Source: an uncultured Flavobacteriaceae bacterium (GTDB taxonomy: Bacteria; Bacteroidota; Bacteroidia; Flavobacteriales; Flavobacteriaceae). From it: a DNA stretch of 64,000 nt. The translations under genes were made by a program, and so were the position numbers. The notes beneath the pieces were generated by a model. The model saw only the letters and a program-made list of their open reading frames with translations. It was not told where the DNA came from and made no database searches. The first letter of the stretch is position 1. Every line of letters starts with the position of its first letter. Of this stretch, positions 56,631 to 63,637 are shown piece by piece. The stretch is from contig CAJWLL010000001.1 of NCBI GenBank assembly GCA_913043275.1, positions 1 through 64,000 of the forward strand. Direction: 5' to 3'.

Positions 56631-57359
56631 TTAAAGTTCCCGGATTTTGATGTTGCGATAGCTGACGCCATCACCGTGATCTTGAAGCCCAATTTTTCCT
56701 GTTTTGAATTTGGCAAAATCCTCCCAATCTTGAAATTTGGAGTTAGCAATCAGGGTATCCCAATCCGGTCCGCTAAGTGGGAAGGTTACGATTTCCACAT
56801 CATTGAGTTTAACACTGCCCTTGTTGGAGTTGTAGTTGATAGAAATAAAAATGTGATTCCATTCTCCTGCTGGTTTACAGACCTTCTGTGTTGGTTGAAC
56901 CATATCGTAAAGTGCTCCTGCCTGGTGATAATCTGGATTGTTGAAGGAATCAGGGTGGCGCTCATTGTCTAAAACTTGGATTTCAGGCCCTGTCTGATAT
57001 GGTTTTTTGTAATTTTCACCTTCTTTTACTCCCCAAAAGATACCACTGTTTCCGACTTCTGCAATTTTCCATTCCATAGACAATTCGAAGTTTGTATATT
57101 CTCGATCAGTAACTATATCGTGACTAGTTCCCTCTTCTTTTTTTGAAGGGTCAAAGACCATAGCGCCATCTTCGATAATCCAAGCACTACTCATTTCGCT
57201 ACTGTTGAATTGATGCCAGCCGATAAATGAATCACCATTGAATAAATCCACCCATTCTTTTTGGGTAGCTAGGGCTTCGTTGACAGTTGTTTTTTTCTTA
57301 GGAGTCTGTTTGCATGCTAAACTAAGAGAGAAAAAGGTAATAAGTAATATTTTTTTCAT
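56631..57359 (-). CDS. DUF1080 (3-keto-glycoside hydrolase-type) lipoprotein
   Basis: A 242-residue secreted protein of the DUF1080/3-keto-disaccharide hydrolase family (concanavalin-like fold). I choose ATG 57359, giving a lipobox at Cys16 (LSLAC). Upstream codons from 57404 would spoil the signal. WVDLFNGDSFIGWHQFN, FELSMEWKIAEVGNSGIFW, NPDYHQAGALYDMV and the end LQDHGDGVSYRNIKIREL are typical. Characterised relatives act on 3-keto-glycosides. It is the last gene of the isomerase and dehydrogenase unit. Confidence 0.88.
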   Translation of the reverse strand: MKKILLITFFSLSLACKQTPKKKTTVNEALATQKEWVDLFNGDSFIGWHQFNSSEMSSAWIIEDGAMVFDPSKKEEGTSHDIVTDREYTNFELSMEWKIAEVGNSGIFWGVKEGENYKKPYQTGPEIQVLDNERHPDSFNNPDYHQAGALYDMVQPTQKVCKPAGEWNHIFISINYNSNKGSVKLNDVEIVTFPLSGPDWDTLIANSKFQDWEDFAKFKTGKIGLQDHGDGVSYRNIKIREL

Positions 57360-57369
57360 TTGTTTTTGA

Positions 57370-58422
57370 TTAAAGGTTGAGAATTTTTTTAAGATGATTT
57401 TCATCTATTTTGGTGCCAGCAAAGTCATCGAAGGTTTTTTGAGTAGCTTCAATAATGTGTGATTGAATAAAAGGTGCACCTTCTCGGGCTCCTTGCTCGG
57501 GACTTTTTATGCAGCACTCCCACTCCATCACAGCCCAAACATCACAGCCGTATTCCGTAAGCTTGGTAAAAATGGTTTTAAAATCAATTTGTCCGTCACC
57601 GGGAGAGCGATAGCGCCCTGCACGATCAATCCAATCTCCATAGCCTCCAAAGGCTCCTTTTTTTCCGGTGGGATTGAACTCAGAATCTTTCACGTGGAAG
57701 GACTTGATGAATTCGTGGTAGTGATCGATATATTTTATATAATCAAGTTGTTGCAGTACAAAGTGACTTGGATCATAAAGAATATTGGCTCTTTTATGAT
57801 TTCCGGTGGCTTCCAAAAAGCGTTCAAATGTTACTCCATCGTGGAGGTCCTCACCAGGATGAATTTCATAGCATACGTCTACCCCGTTTTCATCAAAGGT
57901 ATTAAGTATGGGTAGCCATCTTTTGGCCAGTTCTTTAAATCCCAACTCCACTAATCCATCGGGGCGTTGTGGCCAAGGATGCCAAGTGTGCCACAATAAA
58001 GCACCGGAGAAAGTAGCGTGAGCGTTCAGCCCTAGTCGATTGCTTGCTTTGGCTGCTTTTTTTAGAGTCTCAATGGCCCACTGGGTTCTGGCCTTGGGAT
58101 TGTTTTTGTAGGCATCAGGCGCGAAGTTGTCAAACATCAAGTCATAGGCAGGGTGGACTGCTACCAGTTGTCCCTGAAGGTGGGTAGAGAGCTCAGTGAC
58201 TTCCAACCCATAGGAATTGATTTTACCTTTGAGTTCATCACAATAGGTCTGACTTTCCGCCGCTTTGTCTAAATCAATCAAAAAGCTTTCCCAAGTGGGA
58301 ATTTGAATTCCTTTGTAACCCAGGTCGGCAGCCCATTTGCACATCCCATCCAGCGTGTTGAAAGGAGCTTGCTTGTCGACAAACTGCGCTAAAAAAACAG
58401 CAGGTCCTTTTATGGTTTTCAT
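57370..58422 (-). CDS. TIM-barrel sugar isomerase/epimerase
   Basis: A 350-residue protein of the xylose-isomerase-like TIM-barrel family. Conserved acids lie in VCYEIHPGEDLHDG, NILYDPSHFVLQQ, FHVKDSEFNPTGKKG and VMEWECCIKSP, the usual metal-binding Glu, Asp, His and Glu positions. I choose ATG 58422, which overlaps the upstream Gfo/Idh stop as ATGA; a start at 58443 lies inside that gene. It probably converts a keto-sugar made by the flanking dehydrogenases. Confidence 0.88.
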   Translation of the reverse strand: MKTIKGPAVFLAQFVDKQAPFNTLDGMCKWAADLGYKGIQIPTWESFLIDLDKAAESQTYCDELKGKINSYGLEVTELSTHLQGQLVAVHPAYDLMFDNFAPDAYKNNPKARTQWAIETLKKAAKASNRLGLNAHATFSGALLWHTWHPWPQRPDGLVELGFKELAKRWLPILNTFDENGVDVCYEIHPGEDLHDGVTFERFLEATGNHKRANILYDPSHFVLQQLDYIKYIDHYHEFIKSFHVKDSEFNPTGKKGAFGGYGDWIDRAGRYRSPGDGQIDFKTIFTKLTEYGCDVWAVMEWECCIKSPEQGAREGAPFIQSHIIEATQKTFDDFAGTKIDENHLKKILNL

Positions 58423-59561
58423 TGATTTTTCATGCTTACCCATACGTTCCCTTTTTGATTTGATTCAACAGTTTTTTCGATAAACAACATACCCCTAACC
58501 CCTTCATAGAGGGTCGGAAATTCCCCATTATAAGATTTTTCTTTCCGCAGGGCTTTTGCTACTCCTTTGTAGATGTTTCCCATGGCATCAAAAATACCTT
58601 CGGGATGTCCCGCAGGTAATTTGGCGCCGTCTAAAGACACATCCGTATTATATGCAGCGTTCCCTGGTTTGATGAGCCTTCTGGGTTCATCGTCTTTGAG
58701 ATGGTACAAATAATTTGGGTTTTCTTGTTCCCATTTCAGCGCACCTTTTCGTCCATAAATGGACACTGTAATGTTATTCTCGTCACCAGTAGCAATTTGG
58801 CTGGCGCGCAATAAACCTTTTACCTTTTTGTCCATTCGGATTAAAATCGATCCATCGATGTCCAGAGGGTTATCTTCATAAAGGGTATTGAGATCCGATA
58901 GTAATTCTGATACTTCCATCCCGGTTACGTATTCTACCATGTTAAAAATATGGGTGCCAATGTCACCGATGCAAGAACTGATACCCGCTTTTTTGGGATC
59001 CAATCGCCAGATTTTACTTCTCTTTTCTTTGTCGTGGATCACCGGGTTAATCCACCCTTGGTAGTATTGTAAATCTACTTTGTGAATATCACCAATAACC
59101 CCATTCGCAATCATATCTTTCATTTCTCTAACCATGGGATATCCTGTATAGGTATAGGTAACCGCAAAAATGGCTTGGTGCTTTTTTTGTAGTGCTTGAA
59201 GCTCTTTGGCCTCTTCCAGTGTAGTTGTTAGAGGCTTTTCACAAATGACGTGAAAACCATTTTCCAAGAGTTTTTTGGCCATGGGGTAATGAAGGAAGTT
59301 GGGGGTCAAAACAGAGACTACTTCCACCCTTTCGCTTTCAGGTTTGGCGGACTCTTCAGCTACAAAAGCATCAAAGTCCTTATAAACCCTATCGGTGTTT
59401 AAGCCAATTTGTTTGGAAAACTTGATATTTTCCTTATAGTCAGGGTTAAAAACGCCGCCCACAATCTCGTAGTGGTCATACATATATGAAGCTACCCGGT
59501 GAAGTACCCCAATCAGTGAATCTCCTCCCCCTCCCAATACGCCCAGTCTAATTTTACTCAT
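58419..59561 (-). CDS. Gfo/Idh/MocA-family dehydrogenase
   Basis: A 380-residue NAD(P)-dependent sugar dehydrogenase. The N-terminal GVLGGGGDSLIGVLHRVA is a Rossmann loop, FHVICEKPLTTTLEEAKEL holds the conserved EKP lysine, and SSCIGDIGTHIFNMVEYVTG supplies the active-site Asp and His. No signal peptide, so cytoplasmic. It overlaps the isomerase gene (ATGA) and is divergent from the GMC gene across a 221-base AT-rich gap with no further gene. Confidence 0.92.
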   Translation of the reverse strand: MSKIRLGVLGGGGDSLIGVLHRVASYMYDHYEIVGGVFNPDYKENIKFSKQIGLNTDRVYKDFDAFVAEESAKPESERVEVVSVLTPNFLHYPMAKKLLENGFHVICEKPLTTTLEEAKELQALQKKHQAIFAVTYTYTGYPMVREMKDMIANGVIGDIHKVDLQYYQGWINPVIHDKEKRSKIWRLDPKKAGISSCIGDIGTHIFNMVEYVTGMEVSELLSDLNTLYEDNPLDIDGSILIRMDKKVKGLLRASQIATGDENNITVSIYGRKGALKWEQENPNYLYHLKDDEPRRLIKPGNAAYNTDVSLDGAKLPAGHPEGIFDAMGNIYKGVAKALRKEKSYNGEFPTLYEGVRGMLFIEKTVESNQKGNVWVSMKNQ

Positions 59562-59782
59562 TTTGATTTATTTTTTACCGTTTGAGTAAAAATAGGATTA
59601 ATTTTTCAAAACCAAAATGGAATCAAAGCACAATAAAAGCCTCCCAGATTAAAAATAACATGCAGATATAAATCACTTTAATATATCTTTCATTTTTAGC
59701 ATTAAGATTATATTTTATTGAAGTTCGTGTTTCAAAAGAAAATTTTTACGATATTGACGATCAATTAAACTAAATTAAACTT

Positions 59783-61477
59783 ATGCTTGATAGTTACGAT
59801 GCTATTGTAATTGGTACTGGAATTAGTGGCGGCTGGGCTGCTAAAGAGCTATGTGAAAAAGGATTGAAGACCCTAGTACTGGAAAGGGGGAGAATGGTAA
59901 AACATATAGTTGATTATCATACAGCTCATATGGATCCATGGGACTTCAAAGGTGGAGATAAAACCACTCAAGAAATAATGAAAAAACAATACAAGCAAAT
60001 TAGATCAACTAAATATGCCATTCATGAGTCAACTTCTCATTTTTTTGTTAATGATGATGAACATCCATATAATGAAGATAAACCTTTTGATTGGGTTAGG
60101 GGTTATCATGTTGGTGGAAAATCTTTAATGTGGGCAAGGCAAGTTTACCGATTAAGCGAAATTGATTTTGAGGCTAATGCCAAAGAGGGTATTGGGATTG
60201 ACTGGCCTATTAGATATAAAGACTTGGCTCCTTGGTATAGTTATGTAGAAAAATATATAGGTGTTTCTGGAGAAAAATTAGGGTTACCACAACTCCCTGA
60301 CAGTGAGTTTTTAAAACCAATGGAATTAAACTGTGTTGAAGAAAAATTTAAAAATGACATAGCTAATAAATATAATGACCGTATAATAACAAACTCTAGG
60401 GTAGCTCATATTACAGAAGGAACAAAACCGGGACTTGGTCGTGTAACATGTCAATACAGGAATAGATGTAGAAGAGGCTGCCCATATGGTGCCTATTTTA
60501 GCAGTAATTCATCAACTTTACCTGCGGCAGAAGAAACTGGAAATATGACCCTAAGACCCAACTCAATTGTTCATCAGATTATTTACGATGAAAAAAATAA
60601 TAGGGCAAGTGGGGTTAGAGTAATTGACTCCGAGACGAAAGAAGTTATCGAATACAAGGCTAAAATTATTTTTCTATGCGCTTCAACTATTGCATCGACT
60701 TCAATCTTGTTACAATCAGTATCTAATCGTTTTCCTAATGGTCTTGGAAATGACTCAGGAGAATTAGGTCATAATTTGATGGATCATCATTTGAGGTTAG
60801 GAGCTAGTGCTGACATAGATGGTTTCAAAGATTCATATTATACAGGAAGAAGGCCAGGTGGTATTTATATTCCAAAATTTGTAAACATTGGGGGATCCTC
60901 AAATGTGAAGGACTTTTTAAGGGGATATGGTTTTCAGGGAGGTGCAAAAAGGGGGCCAAATAATGGAAATGGTCCCGAGGAATCTTATGGACCTAAGCTT
61001 AAAGAAATAATTCAGACTCCCGGAGCTTGGAGAATTAATATAGGCGGTTTTGGCGAAATATTGCCTTATCATGATAATAAGATGTATTTAGATTATGATA
61101 AGAAAGACAAGTGGGGATTGCCTACAGTTACTTTCGATGCTGAAATTAAGGAAAATGAAATAATAATGAGAAAGCATTTGCTTCAACAAGCAGGAGAAAT
61201 GCTTGAATCAGCTGGATTCAAAAATATTAAGACCTCTGATAAGGGATACTATTATGGTGCTGGAATACATGAAATGGGTACAGCGAGAATGGGACATAAT
61301 AAACAAACATCTGTACTAAATAAATATAATCAGATTCATTCTGCAAAGAATGTTTTTGTGACTGATGGATCATGTATGACTTCCTCGGGGAATGTAAACC
61401 CTTCATTGACATATATGGCAATAACAGCAAGAGCAGTAAATCATGCTGTAAAAGAACTTAAAAAAATGAACTTATAA
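59783..61477 (+). CDS. GMC-family flavoprotein dehydrogenase (glucoside 3-dehydrogenase-like)
   Basis: A 564-residue FAD enzyme of the GMC family, similar in layout to the large subunit of gluconate and glucoside 3-dehydrogenases. The N-terminal AIVIGTGISGGWAAKELCEK binds FAD. HEMGTARMG and NPSLTYMAITARAV near the C-terminus hold the catalytic His/Asn pair. Cysteines 223, 229 and 233 (TCQYRNRCRRGCPYG) could bind an Fe-S cluster as reported for FAD-glucose dehydrogenase large subunits. There is no signal peptide, so export would need the Tat-type partner encoded next. Confidence 0.9.
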   Translation: MLDSYDAIVIGTGISGGWAAKELCEKGLKTLVLERGRMVKHIVDYHTAHMDPWDFKGGDKTTQEIMKKQYKQIRSTKYAIHESTSHFFVNDDEHPYNEDKPFDWVRGYHVGGKSLMWARQVYRLSEIDFEANAKEGIGIDWPIRYKDLAPWYSYVEKYIGVSGEKLGLPQLPDSEFLKPMELNCVEEKFKNDIANKYNDRIITNSRVAHITEGTKPGLGRVTCQYRNRCRRGCPYGAYFSSNSSTLPAAEETGNMTLRPNSIVHQIIYDEKNNRASGVRVIDSETKEVIEYKAKIIFLCASTIASTSILLQSVSNRFPNGLGNDSGELGHNLMDHHLRLGASADIDGFKDSYYTGRRPGGIYIPKFVNIGGSSNVKDFLRGYGFQGGAKRGPNNGNGPEESYGPKLKEIIQTPGAWRINIGGFGEILPYHDNKMYLDYDKKDKWGLPTVTFDAEIKENEIIMRKHLLQQAGEMLESAGFKNIKTSDKGYYYGAGIHEMGTARMGHNKQTSVLNKYNQIHSAKNVFVTDGSCMTSSGNVNPSLTYMAITARAVNHAVKELKKMNL

Positions 61478-61488
61478 TTGAATTTACT

Positions 61489-62133
61489 ATGGATAGAAGA
61501 AAAGCATTAAAAACAATAGGAATTGGTACTGGAGCAATTACACTCACTCCCGCTGTAGTTGGGATCTTTCAAAGTTGTAAAAAAAATATTGGTCAATTTA
61601 CTCCAATCCACTTTTCTAATGATGATTTTTCAATTTTATCCAAACTGATGGATTTAATCCTTCCCAAAACAGATATACCTGGTGCTATTGAATTAAAATT
61701 ACCCGAGTTTTTGGATGGATATATAGATGTAATTTTATCTGACCCTGCTAAGCAGGAAATCTCAATTGGATTAGATCAATTTTTAAAAGTAGCACTTAAT
61801 GATTCTGGTAAAAATAAATCCAGTCAATTAGATTTAAAGGACTTAGATAATCAGCTTGCTAAATATCTAAAAGCAGGTGAGGGGAAACAAAAAGAATTGG
61901 ATAAAAAAGCCAAACAATTTTTTAATAAAAAAAAGACAAATAGTAAAGTTGAAATTCCCAATATAGCATTGGCTTCCAGTTTTGCAATAAAGCTCCGCTC
62001 ACTTACAATTACTGCTTTTAAAACTAATGAATATATTGGCGAGAATGTTTTAGCATATGCTCCAATCCCAGGAGAACAAATAGGTTGTATAGATTTGAAT
62101 GAAGCTACAGGAGGTAAAGCCTGGTCTTTATAA
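61489..62133 (+). CDS. Small subunit of the GMC dehydrogenase (gluconate 2-dehydrogenase subunit 3 family)
   Basis: A 214-residue partner of the GMC flavoprotein. The N-terminus DRRKALKTIGIGTGAITL is a twin-arginine-like signal. The body contains FSILSKLMDLILPKTDIPGA, typical of the subunit 3 family. It starts 12 bases after the GMC gene. Known relatives stabilise the catalytic subunit and carry it out through Tat. The protein has a Lys-rich, AT-rich central stretch. No cytochrome subunit follows. Confidence 0.85.
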   Translation: MDRRKALKTIGIGTGAITLTPAVVGIFQSCKKNIGQFTPIHFSNDDFSILSKLMDLILPKTDIPGAIELKLPEFLDGYIDVILSDPAKQEISIGLDQFLKVALNDSGKNKSSQLDLKDLDNQLAKYLKAGEGKQKELDKKAKQFFNKKKTNSKVEIPNIALASSFAIKLRSLTITAFKTNEYIGENVLAYAPIPGEQIGCIDLNEATGGKAWSL

Positions 62134-62141
62134 AATTATTT

Positions 62142-62654
62142 TCATTCTTTTACAATAAACTCCCCCTTCATCAAGCTATAGTGGCCAGGGAATGAACAGA
62201 TATAGATATACACTCCCGGTTTGGGTGCTTGAAAATTAATTGTTGTACTTTCACCACCACCAATCATTTTTGTGTAAGCAATGGTCTCATTTCCTTCTGG
62301 GATATAATCTAATTTTTTTGCTTTTACCGCTCTTTTTGCAAATTCATCAACATCAGTTCCTTTCTTCAAAAGAACAAAGTTATGTCCCATAAACTCTTTA
62401 CCAATTTTCCCTTTATGATTTAATGTTAAAAGGATTTTTTTTCCAGATTTAACCTCGATTACTTTCTTGTCAAATACCATTGTATCAAAAGAATTTAGAA
62501 CGATTTTAATCTGACCTTGATTATTTTCAGTGTTTTGACGGTTAGGTTCTACCTTAGTTTTTTTATACTCAAATTTATCCTTCTTTTTTTCATTTTTTGG
62601 TCCACAGGAGGATATTAATGTTAAAGTAGTAATTAGGAAAAAAATTATTTTCAT
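62142..62654 (-). CDS. Azurin-like type I copper lipoprotein
   Basis: A 170-residue cupredoxin with a lipobox at Cys17 (LISSC). A Lys/Asn-rich linker (residues 18-48) leads to a domain with the type I copper set: H91 (GHNFVLL), C153 (ICSFPGH), H158 and M162 (LMKG). It is an electron carrier anchored outside the cytoplasmic membrane. It is convergent with the GMC pair, 8 bases between stops, so it may accept electrons from that dehydrogenase (inference). Confidence 0.93.
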   Translation of the reverse strand: MKIIFFLITTLTLISSCGPKNEKKKDKFEYKKTKVEPNRQNTENNQGQIKIVLNSFDTMVFDKKVIEVKSGKKILLTLNHKGKIGKEFMGHNFVLLKKGTDVDEFAKRAVKAKKLDYIPEGNETIAYTKMIGGGESTTINFQAPKPGVYIYICSFPGHYSLMKGEFIVKE

Positions 62655-62752: not shown

Positions 62753-63637
62753 TTAATCTGTTTTTACGGAAACTAAGTAAACTCCTAGCATAATTATTAA
62801 ACATGCGATTGCTTTAACCACATTAAGGGTATCATTTCCAGTATAAACTGCATAGCTTATTGCAATTATGGGTTGTGCGTAGGCGAAAGCTCCAACTGTT
62901 GATGCTTGTAAATTTCTAAGGGCGAAAATATTGAGCAAATAGGTGAAAAAGGTTGTCCCCAATATCACAAAGAAAACTCTCCAAAGTATTTCAAATGGCA
63001 TGGTCTGCCAATCCACCTTTGTATATTCTTCCAACGTAACTGGTAGGGTTAGAATGAATCCAATTAAAAACAACCACTTCATGATCGAGACAGTATTATA
63101 TTTTTCTGCTAATGGTTTCACCACAATGATAAAACCCGAAAAGAAAATCGAGTTGATCATAAACAGAATATTTCCGGTCAAAACATTCGGAGCATTGCTG
63201 GTATTTTGGGAGCCGAAGAGCACCAGTACCAGGGCACCTGCAAATCCCATGGTAATGCCCAGAAACTTTCGCACTCCGATTTTTTCACCTAAAAACATAT
63301 AGGAGAGCAGCAGTATAATTATGGGGTTGGTTGTGGCAAAAATTCCACTGTTTACTGGAGTAGAGAGTTCTAGCCCTTTGAAAAAAGAAAGCATATTGAT
63401 ACACATCCCCATCAAGGAAGCCAAGAAAAACCTTAGATAATCGACACGTTCAATTTTTTCTTTGGGGAAAAACAAACTGAGCAGCCAAAAAAGTAGGGCT
63501 GCCCCAGCGGTACGAAGAAAAATAAAACCAAAGGCTCCAACATATTCCGGCATCACCAACTTAGCAATTGTATGGTTGAGTCCATAGATTGTAGTGGCAC
63601 CTGTAGCGGCCAAAAGAGCCCAACCTCTAATTTTCAT
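62753..63637 (-). CDS. EamA/DMT-family transporter
   Basis: A 294-residue inner-membrane protein with ten hydrophobic helices in two EamA repeats. The first repeat carries GLNHTIAKLVMPEYVGAFGF and LSTPVNSGIFATTNPIIILL. The second holds NSIFFSGFIIVVKPLAEKYN and ASTVGAFAYAQPIIAI. Substrate (metabolite or amino acid exporter) is unknown. It overlaps the upstream ArsC-like gene by 11 bases. Confidence 0.9.
   Translation of the reverse strand: MKIRGWALLAATGATTIYGLNHTIAKLVMPEYVGAFGFIFLRTAGAALLFWLLSLFFPKEKIERVDYLRFFLASLMGMCINMLSFFKGLELSTPVNSGIFATTNPIIILLLSYMFLGEKIGVRKFLGITMGFAGALVLVLFGSQNTSNAPNVLTGNILFMINSIFFSGFIIVVKPLAEKYNTVSIMKWLFLIGFILTLPVTLEEYTKVDWQTMPFEILWRVFFVILGTTFFTYLLNIFALRNLQASTVGAFAYAQPIIAISYAVYTGNDTLNVVKAIACLIIMLGVYLVSVKTD

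Follow-up and report, generated by a model that had tools for sequence, protein, structure and literature searches.

To which protein does a putative exported sugar dehydrogenase hand its electrons when its genes adjoin that of a blue-copper protein? The partner is a cytochrome in known GMC dehydrogenase complexes of this type, and we know of no established natural acceptor in most Bacteroidota. The question is raised by a 64,000-nucleotide stretch of DNA from an uncultured Flavobacteriaceae bacterium (the window), which lies within contig C1 of a genome of 2.0 Mb in 64 contigs that is 88% complete. Between positions 56631 and 62654, a GMC flavoprotein gene is followed by the gene of a Gluconate_2-dh3 protein (subunit 3), and an azurin-like gene converges on this pair from the opposite strand. 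Among relatives in a set of 199 genomes of its family, some have a cytochrome c in place of azurin at this position (the slot), and the sequence comparisons suggest that copper and heme proteins serve as interchangeable electron carriers of the sugar enzyme.

Gene cassette around the GMC pair

The GMC, Gluconate_2-dh3, and DUF1080/TIM/Gfo-Idh genes are a cassette of many Flavobacteriaceae, and since the arrangement recurs in relatives, it does not reflect chance. In the window, the cassette and its surroundings comprise the following features:

56631..57404, minus strand: putative lipoprotein of the DUF1080 (3-keto-disaccharide hydrolase) family (PF06439; lipobox-like LAC by eye)
57370..58443, minus strand: TIM-barrel sugar isomerase/epimerase-like protein, TIM (PF01261, AP_endonuc_2, 122.6 bits; no signal peptide by eye)
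58419..59561, minus strand: Gfo/Idh/MocA dehydrogenase, GFO (PF01408, PF22725, PF02894; no signal peptide by eye)
59562..59782, no strand: 221-base gap between the divergent GFO and GMC genes, the site of a second TIM-barrel gene (TIM2) and a NupG gene in many relatives
59783..61477, plus strand: GMC flavoprotein, catalytic subunit (PF00732, PF05199; best PDB match fructose dehydrogenase large subunit)
60449..60481, plus strand: C223-x5-C229-x3-C233, putative 3Fe-4S ligands (fructose dehydrogenase alignment, positions counted by hand)
61489..62133, plus strand: Gluconate_2-dh3 protein (subunit 3), proposed exported anchor and escort of GMC (PF13618; Tat-like arginine pair, Cys30 at a lipobox-like site)
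62142..62654, minus strand: azurin-like blue-copper lipoprotein, proposed electron acceptor, convergent with subunit 3 (Copper-bind and azurin PDB matches, conserved neighbourhood)
62532..62606, minus strand: lipid-anchor tether with tag, common to azurin and the slot cytochrome c of relatives (profile and pairwise matches)
62753..63637, minus strand: EamA transporter, flanking marker of the slot and outside the system (Pfam; adjoins azurin or cytochrome in many relatives)

All six protein genes that an earlier, sequence-only reading had assigned to the locus, from DUF1080 to azurin, are borne out at their coordinates by open reading frame positions and by Pfam, NCBIfam, and PDB matches, as is its label "azurin-like". 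GFO, TIM, and DUF1080 share the minus strand, where the mechanical starts overlap by 25 bases (GFO/TIM) and 35 bases (TIM/DUF1080). GMC and subunit 3 are spaced by 11 bases on the plus strand, and the ends of subunit 3 and the minus-strand azurin-like gene are 8 bases apart. The hydrolase-family protein matches PF06439 (DUF1080/3keto-disac_hyd) with 162.8 bits against a cut-off of 26.8, and the dehydrogenase matches GFO_IDH_MocA with 75.8 bits in addition to C-terminal domains. TIM yields a partial match to the NCBIfam IolE model, far under that model's cut-off. A promoter consensus scan returned no excess over shuffled sequences.

The GMC protein matches GMC_oxred_N (54.5 bits) and GMC_oxred_C (71.9 bits), and its best PDB match, the fructose dehydrogenase large subunit, covers residues 4-560 and thus about the whole length (E 6.3e-39). 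Its C-x5-C-x3-C pattern is kept in 156 of 156 GMC rows. These three cysteines are spaced like the 3Fe-4S ligands of the FAD-glucose dehydrogenase of Burkholderia cepacia (BcGDH); the cluster is putative, being read from the sequence. Subunit 3 matches Gluconate_2-dh3 with 68.4 bits. In its N-terminus R3 is invariant, and R4 and C30 occur in at least 90% of 48 sequences; the NCBIfam Tat model scores 13.4 bits, below its cut-off of 16.7. Among the matches listed, this PF13618 subunit has none to the small subunits of BcGDH or fructose dehydrogenase. In another group, a further carrier was suspected among the genes that follow the GMC pair, but these encode ribonucleotide reductase. The window's genome also contains a second GMC gene without a recognised subunit 3 neighbour (contig C25, L149).

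The link between azurin and the GMC pair passes the co-occurrence check that the sequence-only reading had set for it. The GMC query matches 107 of the 199 genomes at E <= 1e-120, the azurin query gives 75 stand-alone matches in 70 genomes (a count that leaves out longer, fused matches), and 52 of these 70 azurin genomes also have GMC (Fisher p 2.6e-5, kinship ignored). For at least 34 of the 75 azurins a GMC match is found no more than 12 kb away, and all 34 of these pairs, among the matches listed, are convergent; counts of GMC, PF13618, and EamA near-pairs are lower bounds. Neighbourhoods were retrieved for 60 of the 74 azurins other than that of the window, the azurin of L072 having been missed by clustering, and gene calls in relatives are mechanical longest open reading frames. 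Near azurin, the GMC-subunit 3 pair is divergent from varying sets of TIM2, NupG-type symporter, GFO, TIM, and DUF1080 genes. Between azurin and the convergent subunit 3 there are 0 to 5 genes, six being the limit examined. The azurin slot occurs in two contexts, either with EamA and ArsC as in the window or with branched-chain amino-acid (ilv) genes and an aldehyde dehydrogenase. The latter context is also found without GMC; azurin therefore has a role of its own.

In many relatives, TIM2 and the NupG-type symporter gene stand between GFO and GMC. Both are absent from the window and its lineage, and no gene of the NupG family (PF03825) was found in its incomplete genome. In L231, only a 110-amino-acid open reading frame occupies the place of NupG. 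Nine PF06439 matches occur in the window's genome, and a further DUF1080 gene clusters with CXXCH-bearing proteins and two Gfo/Idh-like proteins (L370:1492-14333; labels by eye).

Copper and heme carriers in one slot

The azurin-like protein matches Pfam Copper-bind with 55.8 bits against a cut-off of 21.2. Its best PDB match is azurin (E 2.6e-21), with lipid-modified azurins also among the matches. Because the NCBIfam azurin model TIGR02695 scores 97.3 bits, under its cut-off of 105.1, "azurin-like" is the right word. A GHN ... C-x2-4-PGH-x3-4-M pattern, presumably formed by the type-1 copper ligands, is present in 45 of 47 slot azurins, and the other two differ at the P or G of PGH. Azurin-like domains also occur inside open frames of ~640-1190 amino acids in other genomes of the family.

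The nearest named GMC relatives belong to uncultured Flavobacteriaceae (L219-L223, 77-89% identical). Among 80 named GMC loci, the slot holds azurin in L219-L223 and a cytochrome in L224 and L231; L224 has the order cytochrome-EamA-ArsC. At nine of 58 further GMC loci, a small one-CXXCH gene is convergent to subunit 3, mostly before EamA/ArsC. This slot cytochrome is a mono-heme Pfam Cytochrom_C protein (one CXXCH) with a lipoprotein-like start. Considering the six genes downstream of the pair at 156 distinct GMC-subunit 3 loci, 49 have azurin, 15 have the cytochrome, and 2 have both; these loci cover many but not all GMC matches and were chosen around azurins or around GMC matches without a near azurin, and the shares are accordingly non-random.

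The cytochrome query finds 150 copies in 126 of the 199 genomes at E <= 1e-15 and none in the window's genome at this threshold. Eighty-seven of the copies lie within 4 kb, on the same contig, of a match to a 653-amino-acid nos-operon protein, which we take to be NosZ, and are referred to as nos-linked. The other 63 do not, although short contigs may hide a nos link in a few of them; we drew this division with the contexts already in view. At least 10 of the 63 non-nos cytochromes lie within 12 kb of a GMC match, and 10 of 10 among the matches listed are convergent. In L206-L212, L214, L215, and L217, nos-like operons begin with a relative of the slot cytochrome.

The replacement probably extends to the window's own genus. 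In G020, a contig starts with the cytochrome followed by EamA, ArsC, and metB, which is the window layout with azurin replaced; the join of the slot is not seen, because the GMC contig stops within GMC and the copies of the cytochrome lie at contig ends that are repeated. Two G020 contigs (L199 and L200) start with 94.6% identical inverted cytochrome copies, and the assembly may have broken at this repeat. In L246 (3661-4593) and L247 (12251-13180), both carriers stand in tandem in the slot; the cytochrome call of L247 starts late.

The two carriers are distributed in a complementary manner where GMC is present. The 107 GMC genomes divide into 49 with azurin only, 43 with a non-nos cytochrome only, 3 with both, and 12 with neither (odds ratio 0.017, p 3.5e-15, such p values being inflated because the genomes share ancestry). 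Among the 92 genomes without GMC, the corresponding numbers are 15, 10, 3, and 64 (odds ratio 1.28). Any carrier is present in 95 of 107 GMC genomes vs 28 of 92 genomes without GMC. As a control, the nos-linked cytochrome is unrelated to GMC (odds ratio 1.06), and pooling all cytochrome matches gives an odds ratio of 0.14 for the GMC genomes.

At least five carrier changes are needed on the GMC trees (66 rows in one, 72 of the 107 GMC genomes in the other), compared to a mean of 20.6 with shuffled labels. With midpoint rooting, the azurin clade of the window falls inside a group with the cytochrome-bearing L224 and L231 (SH-aLRT 97-99). Since the changes include near relatives, the question of the acceptor can be tested with homologous enzymes and two unrelated carriers.

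A shared lipid-anchor tether

Azurin and slot cytochrome have their N-terminal tether in common. The N-termini of the window azurin and slot cytochromes align in BLASTP (E 7e-10 and 4e-9), and a model of the azurin tether finds 26 of 29 cytochrome tethers at E <= 0.0012; the best of 437 other lipobox-like N-termini, gathered with a rough filter and including some that are not true lipoproteins, reaches 0.013. Likewise, a simple motif count gives 26 of 55 azurins, 19 of 29 cytochromes, and 0 of the 437 others.

Searches of whole genomes agree with this restriction to the two carriers. An FSY-type tether model matches 15 of 16 genomes, the 15 besides that of the window having been chosen for FSY-type tethers, at 32 places: 16 cytochromes, 15 azurins, and one fragment at a contig edge that reads as an azurin start. 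No other protein in the 16 genomes matches at E <= 0.5, and the window's genome has no match. A model that includes tethers of the window lineage gives 16 matches with E < 0.01 in 18 genomes, all within azurin or cytochrome genes by coordinates; the window azurin tether, itself a row of this model, matches at E 1.3e-10. Three weaker matches (0.11-0.93) lie outside azurin and cytochrome genes, three genomes have none, and G183 has only weak ones elsewhere. Since the tether models A2 and A3 include sequences from the searched genomes, azurin and cytochrome matches are expected, and the lack of other matches at the thresholds given is the informative result.

Moreover, the tethers of the two carriers co-vary. 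The mean score of azurin against cytochrome tethers is 64.0 within the same genome and 50.9 across genomes (p 5e-5; 32 genomes that gave both tethers, out of 41 with azurin and any cytochrome match, of which 39 entered after the azurins of G041 and G089 were left out). In a cleaned set of 31 genomes, without G027 and with the cysteine reassigned in the azurin rows of G006, G017, G162, and G169, the score difference is 13.8 vs 1.4 (sd 0.9) when the azurin letters are shuffled. The co-variation also appears when only the 15 genomes without FSY/FTY-class tethers are taken (p 2e-5). Nos-linked cytochrome copies bear the same tether, which resembles the azurin tether of their own genome where azurin is present. 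Such likeness within a genome is not predicted by plain shared descent of the two genes; concerted change or gene conversion would produce it. We tentatively propose, as a possibility short of probable, that one tether with a short tag (FSYE, FEYKRT, or IKIG), about 10 residues past the lipid anchor, docks copper and heme carriers to a common partner, co-evolves with it, and permits exchange of carriers at a dehydrogenase locus or their reuse at the nos operon with no need for the contact to evolve anew. In the L246 tandem, the azurin keeps the F-x-Y tag and the cytochrome has a lipobox and a short linker with no such tag, an arrangement that looks like a replacement intermediate.

Proposed electron path and related systems

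We propose that the locus encodes an exported, LacABC-like glycoside dehydrogenase with an exchangeable tethered electron carrier, an explanation that, taken as a whole, we consider somewhat probable. Subunit 3, by its Tat-like signal and lipobox-like cysteine, would bring GMC out and hold it on a membrane. GMC would then oxidise a glycoside, probably at C3, a position suggested by analogy with the LacABC and DUF1080 precedents. Electrons may pass from FAD via the putative 3Fe-4S cluster to the small lipid-anchored carrier, which would be the azurin-like copper protein here and a mono-heme cytochrome c on the same kind of tether in some close relatives. From the carrier they would enter the respiratory chain; contig C2 contains genes which, by heme counts, sizes, and order, resemble those of an alternative complex III and a heme-copper oxidase. 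DUF1080 would split the keto-glycoside, and TIM and Gfo/Idh, apparently cytoplasmic, would process the keto-sugar. An uptake step would be needed in between, since signal peptides are recognised by eye in the hydrolase and subunit 3 but not in the isomerase or dehydrogenase.

The comparative data lend partial support to the idea of the sequence-only reading that azurin could be the electron sink of GMC and subunit 3 in place of a cytochrome. Beyond co-occurrence and convergence, it gains support because a cytochrome c fills the same slot and the two carriers seldom co-occur in GMC genomes. As 18 of the 70 azurin genomes lack GMC at E <= 1e-120, azurin is probably not dedicated to GMC, and a dedicated GMC subunit was rejected as too strong a description.

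These 18 genomes are one of several observations that weigh against the proposed electron path. Twelve of the 107 GMC genomes are without either carrier at the thresholds used. Neither carrier is found in the six downstream genes at 90 of the 156 loci, 55 of these 90 being in a cassette context, and L131 has the cassette without an adjoining carrier, though azurin is present elsewhere in its genome. Other c-type cytochromes are encoded in the window's genome, and a 133-amino-acid CXXCH protein, a possible other carrier, adjoins a putative sugar dehydrogenase, presumably periplasmic (L369:1929-3451). The predicted model of subunit 3 (pLDDT 83.7) gave no PDB match at E <= 0.001 in a fold search, and none with Z >= 5 among 267 aligned chains. 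Shared ancestry, as mentioned above, inflates the p values of the distribution. Further, the ~5 changes on the trees, set against 20.6 with shuffled labels, indicate that carrier type is mostly inherited. An independent-pairs test on 72 of the 107 genomes is not significant (0.3 pairs same and 3.4 opposite on average, median p 0.25) and lacks power because the pairs are too few.

Several of these points fit a general pool of tethered carriers that is fed by several exported dehydrogenases, with GMC as one main donor. This account overlaps with the proposed electron path, and we regard it as a serious possibility, if short of an even chance. It would accommodate GMC-free azurins, nos-linked cytochromes, and carrier-less GMC loci, as well as the GMC-dependent complementarity and the tether common to nos-linked cytochromes, but no second donor is known, no systematic search for donors having been made in GMC-free azurin genomes. 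A further step in this direction would make azurin and cytochrome general respiratory shuttles, running for instance from complex III to an oxidase or N2O reductase, that are mere neighbours of a GMC using another acceptor. Azurin in the 18 GMC-free genomes, often after ilv genes and aldehyde dehydrogenase, the 87 of 150 cytochromes beside a NosZ-like gene with the same tether, and the lack of an adjacent carrier at 90 of 156 loci speak for such shuttles. Carrier presence nevertheless tracks GMC (95/107 vs 28/92), exclusion is seen only in GMC genomes, albeit with shared ancestry, and the convergent position is kept in two contexts, so that we judge mere neighbourhood rather unlikely. Least probable, and in our view improbable, is that GMC acts on a non-carbohydrate alcohol with the DUF1080/TIM/Gfo-Idh neighbourhood reflecting a different pathway: the best NCBIfam match is cholesterol oxidase, at 63.4 bits and far below the cut-off of 850, so that family models do not fix the substrate, but the best PDB match is fructose dehydrogenase over almost the full length, the cassette recurs with sugar-type genes, and lactose users have genes for LacA-like proteins close to DUF1080, according to the available text of PMC9007349.

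Returning to the exported dehydrogenase with an exchangeable carrier, the locus is a variant of the known LacABC/DUF1080-type sugar oxidation, and what stands out in it is the exchange of carriers together with the tether that co-varies between them. We take LacA to be the GMC protein, LacC the subunit-3-like protein, and LacB the cytochrome. In Caulobacter, as described in the available part of PMC9007349, a DUF1080 protein encoded near LacABC is proposed to hydrolyse 3'-ketolactose in the periplasm, and LacA-like and DUF1080 genes adjoin also in Indibacter, Algoriphagus, and Halomonas, Bacteroidota included. The window shares with this system a dehydrogenase, here putatively exported and of three components, whose GMC/subunit 3 genes lie near DUF1080. 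In contrast, the proposed third component is a convergent azurin-like lipoprotein, or a mono-heme lipoprotein in some relatives. The comparison is made at the level of gene descriptions.

A similar relation holds to BcGDH and fructose dehydrogenase, which likewise combine a GMC protein bearing C-x5-C-x3-C with a small escort subunit that has an export signal. According to the accessible portion of PMC6719666, Cys212, Cys218, and Cys222 of BcGDH bind a surface 3Fe-4S cluster from which electrons go to a multiheme c subunit, while the small subunit acts as escort during export. The GMC pair described here has no multiheme cytochrome gene beside it: a cupredoxin adjoins it in the window, and a cytochrome with one CXXCH does so in some relatives. 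We propose that a single-centre carrier on a lipid anchor takes that part instead.

With azurins, including lipid-modified ones, the copper protein has the blue-copper domain in common, whereas the TIGR02695 score below cut-off, the tether shared with cytochromes, and the linkage to a GMC cassette set it apart. Azurin operons show no clear pattern among sampled genomes in the available text of PMC8779525. No description of azurin with GMC, or of its exchange for a cytochrome, was found in titles and abstract openings of the openly licensed part of the literature, whose coverage is incomplete.

A tether that two carriers share and that co-varies between them is suggestive of a docking code among redox proteins with lipid anchors, which would be useful for understanding marine flavobacterial respiration and for coupling enzymes to electrodes. 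The closest parallel for the exchange itself is plastocyanin and cytochrome c6, copper and heme carriers that serve one partner across organisms or conditions (available part of PMC13036084). Pathway and proteins are different there, and in the Flavobacteriaceae the exchange takes place at one chromosomal slot with a shared tether. Should the swap turn out to follow the supply of metals, the plastocyanin/cytochrome c6 exchange would have a counterpart in these bacteria.

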